Below, one piece after another: positions 54,520 through 58,460 of a stretch of 64,000 nt of DNA. Position 1 is the first letter of the stretch, and each line of letters opens with the position of its first letter. Under the pieces are notes generated by a model that did no database searches, was not told the origin of the DNA, and saw only the letters and a program-made list of their open reading frames with translations. The position numbers and the translations under genes are program-made. This stretch comes from Halovenus carboxidivorans (GTDB taxonomy: Archaea; Halobacteriota; Halobacteria; Halobacteriales; Haloarculaceae): assembly GCF_009831575.1 (NCBI RefSeq), contig NZ_WUUT01000001.1:891345-955344 (forward strand), read 5' to 3'.

Positions 54520-55078
54520 ATTAGATATCTACCGCATTCTCTCTTAAAATTGTACCGGAACGTTTACTGCTGTCGATTTTCGCTGAGTACGTCGAAAATC
54601 GCGGGACTGCGACGGGATAGTCCGTCGCCTGTGAATCGGTCACAGCCGACATAAATCCCTCCGGACTGTTTCACAGAACATCCGCGGTTCTTCGACAATT
54701 GTCAGGCTCGGGTAGCACCCCCTCCAGCGGTACTCGGCGGGAGTTGACTCCCTCGGGGTCGAATAGTCTGGTAGGTCAGCGTACGTGCGCGCGTATAGTT
54801 GATCCCGGCAACAATTTCTGGTAAGGCCTCTCTCGGATCCGTGCGTATCCCGGAAAATCGACCAGAATTGGCAGAATCAGGGGCTATCCTGTCGGTTTGA
54901 TAGAGTTCGGACGGGATGTACCGGCAACATAATCCGCCATAACTGAAGCGTGGCGGTATTCTCCGTGAGTGAGCGGATAAAGTATCCCGAAGTATTGGGG
55001 GTATACAAAGCGGCAGTTGCAAAAACTGTCGACGAGTTAACTTATGAATGCGCACAACTGCCGACGAGGTGTTCAGTC
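54520..55078. promoter_or_regulatory. Long regulatory gap before the nitrite/sulfite reductase
   Basis: This 559-bp stretch holds no convincing gene. It contains a perfect 9-bp inverted repeat CGATTTTCG/CGAAAATCG (54574-54582, 54593-54601). Near the reductase start a direct repeat AACTGTCGACGAG (55024-55036) and AACTGCCGACGAG (55056-55068) flanks TTAACTTATGAA at 55037-55048, the probable TATA region. A 117-codon minus-strand frame (54702-55055) has no protein-like character. Confidence 0.5.
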
Positions 55079-56785
55079 ATGAATACAGTCGAAGAGTGGA
55101 AAGAGCAGAAACACCCGCTCGACGTGATCGAGGACGTCAAGCGGTACGCCGAGGAAGGAATGTCCTTCGAGGAAATCGCCGAGTCCGAGGGCGACGGCGA
55201 GTTCGAGCGCCTGAAGTGGGCTGGCATGTACACCCACGGCGTTCACGACGACTACTACATGATGCGGACGAAAGTCCCCGGCGGCTACCTGACTCCCGAG
55301 CAGGCCGAGGTCATCGGCGAGATGGCGACGGAGTACGCCACCGCCCCCGAGGAGTTCGGCGGTGAGGAACAGAACGACATCTGGGGCGACGCCTTCCTCG
55401 ACATCACGACCCGCCAGGACATCCAGAAACACTGGATCGAAATCGAGGACGTGCCGGAGATCTGGGCCAAGTACGACGAGGTCGGGCTGACGACGATCCA
55501 GGGCTGCGGTGACTCCGCCCGGAACGTGCTCGGTTGTCCGGTCGCCGGCGTCTCCGATCACGAGGTTTTCAACGCACAGCCGGTCATCGACGCCGTCTCC
55601 GACTTCTTCACCGGCAACCGGGAGTTCGCCAACCTCCCCCGGAAGTTCAAGATGACGATCACGGGCTGCAAACACGATTGCGCCCAGTCGCAGATCAACG
55701 ACGTGGGCATGACCCCCGCCAAGAAGGAGATCGACGGCGAGTGGAAGTACGGTTTCCACGTCAAGGTCGGCGGCGGCCTCTCGGACGGTCCCCGTATGGC
55801 CTCGCCGCTGGACGTGTTCGTGCTGCCGGAGGACGCCGTCGAGTTCGCCCGCGCCACCGCACAGACGTTCAAGGAACTGGGCGACCGGAACAACCGCGGC
55901 GTCTGCCGAATGCGGTATCTCGTCCAGCAGATGGGCCCGGAGAACTTCGAGCAGGCTATCCGCGACCGCAGCGAGGTGGACTTCCACGAGCGCGGCATCG
56001 ACCTCACTGAGGGATACACCGGCGACCACGTCGGCGTCCACGACCAGAAACAGGACGGCCTGAAGTACGTCGGCTTCAACGTCATCGCCGGCCGGATGGG
56101 TGGCGACGAGTTCGCGGAAGCCGCCCGCGCGGCCGAGAAGTACGGCACCGACGAGGCCTCGGTCCGACTCGCGACCGACCAGAACTTCGTGCTGACACAC
56201 ATCAAAGAGGAGAACATCGGAGAGCTGATGAACGAGCCCTTTGCCCGCAAGTACAGGCCCGACCCGGGTCCGTTCTCCCGGGGCGCGGTCGGCTGTACGG
56301 GTTCGGAGTTCTGTAACTACGGCATCATCGAGACGAAAAACCGCGTCCGTCGGTGGGCGAAAGCCCTGGACAAGCGTATCGACACGCCCGACGACCTCGA
56401 CGTCGTCCGGATGCACATGTCCGGTTGCTCGGCGTCCTGTGCACAGCCGCAGGTTGCCGACATCGGGTTCCGCGGCGAGACGGTCCAACTCGACGACCCC
56501 GAAGGCACCACCAACGAGGAGGGCGACAACATCGTCGAAGGGATGGACTTCGGGCTCGGCGGCGCGCTCGGCACCGACAACGAGTTCATCGACTGGGTCG
56601 AACACGCCGTCCCGGCGGACTCGGTGATCCCGGCACTCGAACAGCTGTTCGACGCCTACACCGACGAGCGCCACGAGGGCGAGCGGTTCTACGAGTGGTG
56701 CCGTCGGACCGACAACGACCGGCTCCGCACCATCATGCAGGGAGCAGACGCCAACGTCGCCGGGGGTGTCGCACATGGCGACTGA
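55079..56785 (+). CDS. nirA: Siroheme-dependent nitrite/sulfite reductase
   Basis: The 568-residue protein reduces nitrite to ammonia (or sulfite to sulfide) with siroheme and a [4Fe-4S] cluster. The pseudo-twofold halves are visible: 'KMTITGCKHDCAQSQINDVG' in the first and 'SGCSASCAQPQVADIG' in the second. The cluster ligands are Cys 406, 412, 450 and 454 (GCTGSEFCNYGIIETKNR). ATG 55079 is preferred over extension upstream. The stop overlaps the next gene by 11 bp. Electron supply probably comes from that FrhB-like protein. Whether the substrate is nitrite or sulfite is not settled by these residues. The siroheme route is encoded at 9171. Confidence 0.93.
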   Translation: MNTVEEWKEQKHPLDVIEDVKRYAEEGMSFEEIAESEGDGEFERLKWAGMYTHGVHDDYYMMRTKVPGGYLTPEQAEVIGEMATEYATAPEEFGGEEQNDIWGDAFLDITTRQDIQKHWIEIEDVPEIWAKYDEVGLTTIQGCGDSARNVLGCPVAGVSDHEVFNAQPVIDAVSDFFTGNREFANLPRKFKMTITGCKHDCAQSQINDVGMTPAKKEIDGEWKYGFHVKVGGGLSDGPRMASPLDVFVLPEDAVEFARATAQTFKELGDRNNRGVCRMRYLVQQMGPENFEQAIRDRSEVDFHERGIDLTEGYTGDHVGVHDQKQDGLKYVGFNVIAGRMGGDEFAEAARAAEKYGTDEASVRLATDQNFVLTHIKEENIGELMNEPFARKYRPDPGPFSRGAVGCTGSEFCNYGIIETKNRVRRWAKALDKRIDTPDDLDVVRMHMSGCSASCAQPQVADIGFRGETVQLDDPEGTTNEEGDNIVEGMDFGLGGALGTDNEFIDWVEHAVPADSVIPALEQLFDAYTDERHEGERFYEWCRRTDNDRLRTIMQGADANVAGGVAHGD

Positions 56786-58460
56786 GGACGATCCGGAACT
56801 GGTCGAGGACGCCCCCGCCGTCGACGGCCGGGATCCGACCGTTGCCGAGACTGAAGCCGACTCCGAGCGGACCCTGCCCGGCGTTCCCGCCACCGACTCC
56901 GAGGGGACGAGCGTCCCGCCGATGTCCGGCGACGACGACCGGACGCGCGGACAGACGGAGACGATCTCCGCGGACGGCCCGGACGCAGACGACGGCTGCG
57001 GGCCGAGTTGTGGCTGTTCGAGCGGTACGGAGGCCGAACGGCCGGCGACCGACGGCGGCCGCGCGATTGCCGACGGTGCCGGCGCGGACGCCGCCGGCGG
57101 CACGCCGACGAACGTCGACGAAAACGGCGAACTCGGCGACATCGAGTTCACCGAGCCCGCGAGCGGCAAGAGCCAGCCCCTCCCCGGCGAGGGCCGCGGC
57201 GATCCGGAGCGACCGGACGAACGGGTCAACCTCCCCGGCGACGCGAAGCTTGAAACGCCGGGCTACGGCATCCGCGCCGAGATGAACGACATCGAGGAGC
57301 CGGACGACAAGACCTGGTTCATGGAACTGGACGAGGGCGTCATCGACGCCGGCCGCTGTATCCAGTGCGGCACCTGTGTCGCCGCCTGTCCGTCGGACTC
57401 CATCGGCATCGGTGACGACGGCCTGCCGGAACTCGTGAAGATGTGTACCGGCTGTTCGCTCTGTTGGGACTTCTGTCCCCGGGGCGGTCTGCGCTACGAG
57501 CGCCAGTGGAAGATCACCGGCGGCGAAGACAACGTCAAGGGCGCAGGCGACCCGATCACGGAGTTCTCCGCCCGCGTCGAGGAGGACTGGCGACACAACT
57601 CCCAGGACGGCGGTGTCGTCACGGGCGTCCTCATCCGGCTCATGGAGGAGGGCGAAATCGACGGTGCGCTCATCGCCAGCGAAAGCGACGAGGAACCCTG
57701 GAAAGCCGAAGGGTTCATGGCCACCTCTCCGGCGGAACTCAAGGAGAACACGGGCACCATCTACAACCAGACGATGGCGCTCGGTCACCTGGACTTCTCG
57801 AAGTGGGAAGACAAGTTCGAGAAAGACTGGGAGGACCTCTCGCTGGCGCTAGTCGGCACGCCCTGTGAGATCGAGGGCATCAGCGCGCTACAGGACTTCC
57901 AGTGGGAGTACGGCTCCCAGGAGGAGGGCGTCCGCGCCATCGACTACAAGATTGCGCTGATGTGCACGAAGAATTTCAACTACCAGCAGCTCATCGGCGA
58001 GAAGATCCAGGAAGAGCGCGACATCGACATCGACGACGTGGGCAAGATGGACGTGCTCCACGGCAAACTGATGATCGACGACCTGGAAGGCAACCGGATT
58101 CTCGAAGAGGACATCGAGAACTTCCACGACGCCGCACTCAAAGGCTGTGACGAGTGTGCCGATTTCACCGGCTTCTGTGCCGACCTCACCGTCGGCTCCG
58201 TCGGCTCCAGCGACGAGTACTCCTCGATCATCATCCGCTCCGAACAGGGCCTCGACGCCTGGAACCTGACGAAAGAACACCTCGACTACCACGACCTCGA
58301 AGACAAGTCCGCAATCGGGAAACTGCAGGGCTGGGACAAGAAGAAGGCCTTCGAGGCGCTCGAACGACCGTTCGATCCGGACGCGCCCCGGTTCATCGAG
58401 TACAGCGAGCACGTCGAGAACTACGGCGGCGAGCTGAACCCCCACGAAGCCGACCACTGA
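56775..58460 (+). CDS. F420-dehydrogenase beta-subunit-like (FrhB/FpoF) iron-sulfur flavoprotein
   Basis: The 561-residue protein has a disordered acidic N-terminus (to about 175) containing Cys 75, 79 and 81; then two [4Fe-4S] ferredoxin motifs (C195-C198-C201-C205 and C224-C227-C230-C234); then an FrhB-type domain with 'LVGTPCEIEGISALQDF', 'ALMCTKNFNYQQLIGEKI' and 'KGCDECADFTGFCADLTVGS'. FrhB-type proteins bind FAD and take electrons from F420H2. The overlap with the reductase (56775-56785) makes it the likely electron donor of that enzyme. A GTG nine bases upstream is an alternative start. Confidence 0.9.
   Translation: MATEDDPELVEDAPAVDGRDPTVAETEADSERTLPGVPATDSEGTSVPPMSGDDDRTRGQTETISADGPDADDGCGPSCGCSSGTEAERPATDGGRAIADGAGADAAGGTPTNVDENGELGDIEFTEPASGKSQPLPGEGRGDPERPDERVNLPGDAKLETPGYGIRAEMNDIEEPDDKTWFMELDEGVIDAGRCIQCGTCVAACPSDSIGIGDDGLPELVKMCTGCSLCWDFCPRGGLRYERQWKITGGEDNVKGAGDPITEFSARVEEDWRHNSQDGGVVTGVLIRLMEEGEIDGALIASESDEEPWKAEGFMATSPAELKENTGTIYNQTMALGHLDFSKWEDKFEKDWEDLSLALVGTPCEIEGISALQDFQWEYGSQEEGVRAIDYKIALMCTKNFNYQQLIGEKIQEERDIDIDDVGKMDVLHGKLMIDDLEGNRILEEDIENFHDAALKGCDECADFTGFCADLTVGSVGSSDEYSSIIIRSEQGLDAWNLTKEHLDYHDLEDKSAIGKLQGWDKKKAFEALERPFDPDAPRFIEYSEHVENYGGELNPHEADH

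Follow-up and report, generated by a model that had tools for sequence, protein, structure and literature searches.

An assimilatory-type F420-dependent sulfite reductase of haloarchaea, aFsr, was predicted and named as a putative enzyme in 2012 by Susanti and Mukhopadhyay (PMC3448663), and the 2022 study of FsrII reused the name, still with the word "putative" (PMC9295563). FsrII of ANME2c, which has an F420H2-oxidase half, carries out F420H2-driven reduction of nitrite, not sulfite (PMC9295563). In Group I Fsr, sulfite is bound by two arginines and two lysines, a set reported to be conserved among sulfite reductases (PMC10229431). Little is said to be known about sulfide formation in haloarchaea (PMC3402447), and as of 2021 reports from halophiles included a single F420-dependent reaction (PMC8305020). 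No experiment on aFsr was found in our literature search, which covered open-licence papers and is not exhaustive.

The window, i.e., the whole 64,000-nucleotide stretch of DNA that was analysed, contains a gene pair that is likely to encode an F420H2-dependent assimilatory-type sulfite reductase of this haloarchaeal kind (aFsr). An earlier interpretation made from the DNA letters (the sequence-only reading) had presented the F420H2 route as new, a claim that is preempted by the 2012 prediction and the reuse of its name in 2022. The architecture that it described was borne out: an assimilatory-type siroheme reductase with a match to NirA/SiR and a separate F420H2-oxidase-type subunit are encoded by two genes, unlike the fused, Dsr-type Fsr. 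The features of the locus, and of a second pair in the same genome, were as follows.

55079 to 56785, plus strand: aFsr-alpha, a siroheme reductase of the NirA/assimilatory-SiR type, 568 aa (Pfam, motifs)
56775 to 56785, plus strand: 11-bp overlap of the alpha and beta genes
56775 to 58460, plus strand: aFsr-beta, by sequence an F420H2-oxidase subunit of the FrhB/Fsr-N type, 561 aa
56775 to 57329, plus strand: acidic N-terminal tail of beta, ~185 aa, predicted to be disordered
56997 to 57017, plus strand: conserved three-cysteine motif within the tail: CGPSCGC at residues 75-81, an instance of C-x(2-4)-C-x-C
57357 to 57476, plus strand: dicluster ferredoxin domain in beta, with cysteines 195/198/201/205 and 224/227/230/234
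57567 to 58301, plus strand: FrhB_FdhB N and C domains of beta, putative FAD/F420 site
L009:9768-13390 (717.8-721.4 kb of G000 contig C1): another aFsr-like pair, a tandem-rhodanese reductase and its FrhB-like partner, with a 1-base gene overlap at L009:11003

The alpha gene starts at an in-frame ATG at 55079, and its stop codon ends at 56785; the mechanically defined open reading frame opens earlier, at a GTG at 54950, and the alignment of relatives begins at the Met encoded at 55079. The protein matched the Pfam families NIR_SIR (2.8e-51) and NIR_SIR_ferr (3.2e-29). Cys 406, 412, 450, and 454 were found at precisely the positions that had been read from the sequence, where they make up the CX5C...CX3C motif of a siroheme/[4Fe-4S] center. 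The 11-bp overlap with the FrhB-like gene that had been reported also agrees exactly with the coordinates (55079-56785 and 56775-58460).

The beta gene starts at an ATG at 56775 and ends with its stop codon at 58460. Pfam detected FrhB_FdhB_C (1.8e-31), FrhB_FdhB_N (1.7e-18), and a Fer4 dicluster in the product, in which the previously noted FrhB signature 'KGCDECADFTGFCADLTVGS' is present; the QDGGVVT motif (residues 277-283) lies within the FrhB_FdhB region. Beta has both the N and C domains of the F420-binding FrhB_FdhB family along with its four cluster cysteines, and it is predicted to bind FAD and F420. Because two complete CxxCxxCxxxC sets (residues 195-205 and 224-234) are present in addition to the four FrhB cysteines (residues 364, 397, 458, and 461), three [4Fe-4S] clusters are expected. 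The two ferredoxin clusters counted in the sequence-only reading are thus both complete, with the third, implied by the FrhB cysteines, missing from that count. All 12 cluster cysteines are conserved. The AlphaFold model of beta was weak overall (mean pLDDT, 48).

In a survey of 292 Halobacteria genomes, the window-type FrhB-like protein was detected in 82 and the window-type reductase (alpha-A) in the same 82. The partner gene lay directly downstream on the same strand for every alpha-A reductase (82/82), and no alpha-A without beta was found among the 292 genomes. Together with the loci from named genomes, 79/80 of which were paired, this arrangement is far beyond chance. The neighbourhood comparison across haloarchaeal genomes that had been proposed earlier therefore came out in favor of adjacent pairs, and such strict pairing in the examined genomes makes the aFsr prediction much stronger; the two products would be expected to form a complex. 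The 80 named relatives were all haloarchaeal, the nearest being those of Halovenus and Salinibaculum, and in the rest of the phylum identity fell to ~30 to 39% among the matches listed. In a control search, Haloferax volcanii yielded no FrhB_FdhB_C gene.

No sulfur-assimilation genes were found to be conserved beside the pair, and a conserved third operon member was rejected, with none across 39 loci. Natural fusion of alpha and beta was also rejected; the long open frames at three rhodanese-type loci contain a stop between the genes. In two Haladaptatus species (L182 and L190), the window-type FrhB gene and its reductase are located on a plasmid. Short, tail-less FrhB-like paralogues without a neighbouring reductase were observed at L062:7059-8342 and L063:7801-9084, the latter adjoining a flavoprotein that resembles fumarate reductase/FAD dehydrogenase (L063:9459-10886).

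The genome from which the window was taken encodes both pair types. In the second, type B, the reductase carries a tandem rhodanese at its N terminus (alpha-B) and is followed by a shorter FrhB-like protein (beta-B), and alpha-B was accompanied by its own beta-B in 24/24 of the cases listed. The catalytic rhodanese cysteine, within LYCNTARRLS, was present in 19 of the 20 sequences scanned, the scan having covered the 20th incompletely. Nineteen rhodanese-fused NirA proteins have been reported in Halobacteria, with no mention of an FrhB partner in the available part of that report (PMC11237513). A broken rhodanese-type FrhB partner in two fragments, for which no adjacent reductase was found, occurs at L061:7418-8265.

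The active site suggests that the substrate of the pair is probably sulfite rather than nitrite. Arg63, Arg148, Lys189, and Lys191 of alpha (PRKFK) align with the sulfite-binding residues and form a putative sulfite-binding set. In plant nitrite reductases, the fourth position is Asn in most of the alignments shown, one tobacco chain among them having Lys; this Asn/Lys switch has a role in tobacco nitrite reductase. The NirA of the window's genome has PRKFN and no FrhB partner, with genes for a molybdopterin oxidoreductase and a tetrapyrrole methylase nearby. The Lys-x-Asn active site of NirA, which reads KFN in that protein and in 17/17 readable loci of the haloarchaeal NirA group, is replaced in alpha by Lys189-Phe-Lys191. 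The paired type had KFK or KYK in 77/77 readable cases of one set, and a second, stand-alone reductase group had KWK in 12/12 loci.

The substrate cannot be deduced from family membership, because FsrII of ANME2c takes nitrite, not sulfite, with F420H2 (PMC9295563). It is conceivable that the pair likewise uses F420H2 to reduce nitrite, for ammonification or detoxification, as siroheme sulfite reductases often reduce nitrite and the best partial NCBIfam match of alpha, although under the cut-off of that model, was ferredoxin-nitrite reductase. This seems unlikely with a separate Asn-type NirA in the same genome and a Lys-type site kept by alpha-A in each of the 77 readable cases. From the initial assignment of alpha as a nitrite/sulfite reductase, the siroheme reductase was retained and sulfite is the more likely substrate, since the site is of the Lys type while the Asn-type NirA of the genome has no FrhB partner.

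Comparison of a profile of the partner proteins with solved structures points to F420H2 as the electron donor. F420 enzymes were matched with E values of 1e-37 to 1e-56, compared to 2.5e-4 for the ferredoxin-using HCAR. The matches included an F420-reducing CODH component (8riu, 2e-56; identity taken from the Foldseek search), Fsr (7np8, 4e-55), and FrhB (8.5e-41); F420 formate dehydrogenase was matched at 1e-13. Beta could instead receive electrons from ferredoxin, the usual donor of NirA-type enzymes, in the manner of HCAR/BciB-type members of the FrhB superfamily, and HCAR is structurally related to beta (Foldseek E, ~1e-13, obtained with a low-confidence model whose matches add little beyond sequence). 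However, F420 enzymes are ahead in the sequence profile by ~50 orders of magnitude in E value, and unpaired haloarchaeal NirA/SiR proteins do without an FrhB-like subunit. HCAR-type ferredoxin use by beta is thus disfavoured, and we consider it quite unlikely.

Electron supply from F420H2 is plausible in the window's genome, which encodes cofD (373 bits) and npdG (249 bits), so that F420 could be made and reduced with NADPH. F420 has been reported in halophiles only in small amounts (PMC8305020). In the reductase tree, a 100/100 branch separated both paired types from both unpaired types, the topology that a single origin of the F420 link would predict, although the root of the tree is not fixed.

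In the proposed aFsr mechanism, FAD in the FrhB domain would accept a hydride from F420H2 on beta. Electrons would then travel one at a time from the FrhB [4Fe-4S] cluster, via both ferredoxin clusters, to the [4Fe-4S]-siroheme center in alpha. There, sulfite would be reduced to sulfide with six electrons, at a cost of three F420H2 per sulfite, and the sulfide would feed cysteine synthesis. F420H2-driven sulfite reduction is favourable, at -135 kJ/mol (PMC9295563).

The distribution of the stand-alone Lys-type (KWK) reductase bears on the physiological role of the pair. This reductase was present in 39/82 genomes with alpha-A versus 165/210 without it (Fisher p, ~5e-7, uncorrected for phylogeny). 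Strict mutual exclusion between aFsr and the stand-alone reductase was rejected; the association is negative only. The stand-alone haloarchaeal KWK group (L102-L113) is probably a ferredoxin-type sulfite reductase. Although common in other haloarchaea, it is absent from the window's genome, in which NirA and the two pairs account for all siroheme reductases of the NirA/SiR family; the two pairs are therefore its sole Lys-type reductases. The same genome had a weak family match to PAPS reductase (53 bits) and matches to the molybdopterin sulfite-oxidase family.

A non-assimilatory function, such as detoxifying sulfite, reoxidizing F420H2 to keep redox balance, or reducing a different sulfur oxyanion, has precedent in the detoxification of sulfite by methanogen Fsr, and the 39 alpha-A genomes that also keep a stand-alone Lys-type reductase are consistent with it. 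However, a purely auxiliary role would leave the window's genome without an assimilatory reductase, since it has no further Lys-type reductase, and this function is regarded as very improbable. The lack of any other Lys-type reductase here shows that there are genomes in which aFsr could be tested cleanly by genetics. If the aFsr assignment is correct, F420 serves sulfur assimilation in a large proportion of haloarchaea, type A alone occurring in 82/292 sampled genomes.

Window-type partners typically have well over 100 residues, with ~25% Asp plus Glu, ahead of the ferredoxin domain. Model confidence for this tail in the window's beta was very low, as in disorder, in an AlphaFold model that is weak throughout. 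The C-x(2-4)-C-x-C motif sits roughly 100 residues N-terminal of the first cluster cysteine and was found in 38/41 distinct paired proteins of one set and 66/77 of a second, partly overlapping set. Some tails have an added His-rich stretch (L030, L067, and L078), and the rhodanese-type partners are without the motif. No description of a conserved three-Cys tail motif was found in the literature searched. Speculatively, and with little likelihood attached, the tail might act as a tethered arm that handles sulfur or metal in cooperation with the reductase and so be functionally analogous to the DsrC arm found in dissimilatory enzymes, with the fused catalytic rhodanese handling sulfur instead in the paralogous system.

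Among known systems, the ferredoxin-dependent plant nitrite reductase (2akj) and Mycobacterium tuberculosis NirA (1zj8) align with almost the entire length of alpha (E, 5e-83 and 3e-67), but these are single, ferredoxin-fed proteins, whereas alpha always occurred with beta in the surveyed genomes. FpoF/FqoF and FrhB share the FAD/F420 domain with beta, and its Fer4 and FrhB order is as in FpoF; their neighbours are Fpo or hydrogenase subunits, whereas beta has a siroheme reductase as its neighbour and an acidic, Cys-bearing tail. In Group I Fsr of methanogens (7np8/7npa), the Fsr-N half is homologous to the whole core of beta (E, 2e-33), and the four basic sulfite residues and the CX5C...CX3C siroheme cluster motif are shared. 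That enzyme is one polypeptide with a Dsr-type C-terminal half and extra clusters; here there are two genes and an aSir/NirA-type reductase, and neither the single fused polypeptide nor the Dsr-type half that mark Group I and II Fsr was found, alpha matching NirA/SiR with an E value of 5e-83 and Fsr-C weakly (7e-7). From aFsr the pair differs in nothing basic, although the available part of the 2012 text (PMC3448663) does not include the tail Cys motif or a rhodanese-fused paralogue with its own beta. As in that prediction, a separate aSir/NirA-type alpha is encoded next to an Fsr-N-type beta, with FrhB and two N-terminal ferredoxin clusters, in a haloarchaeal host.
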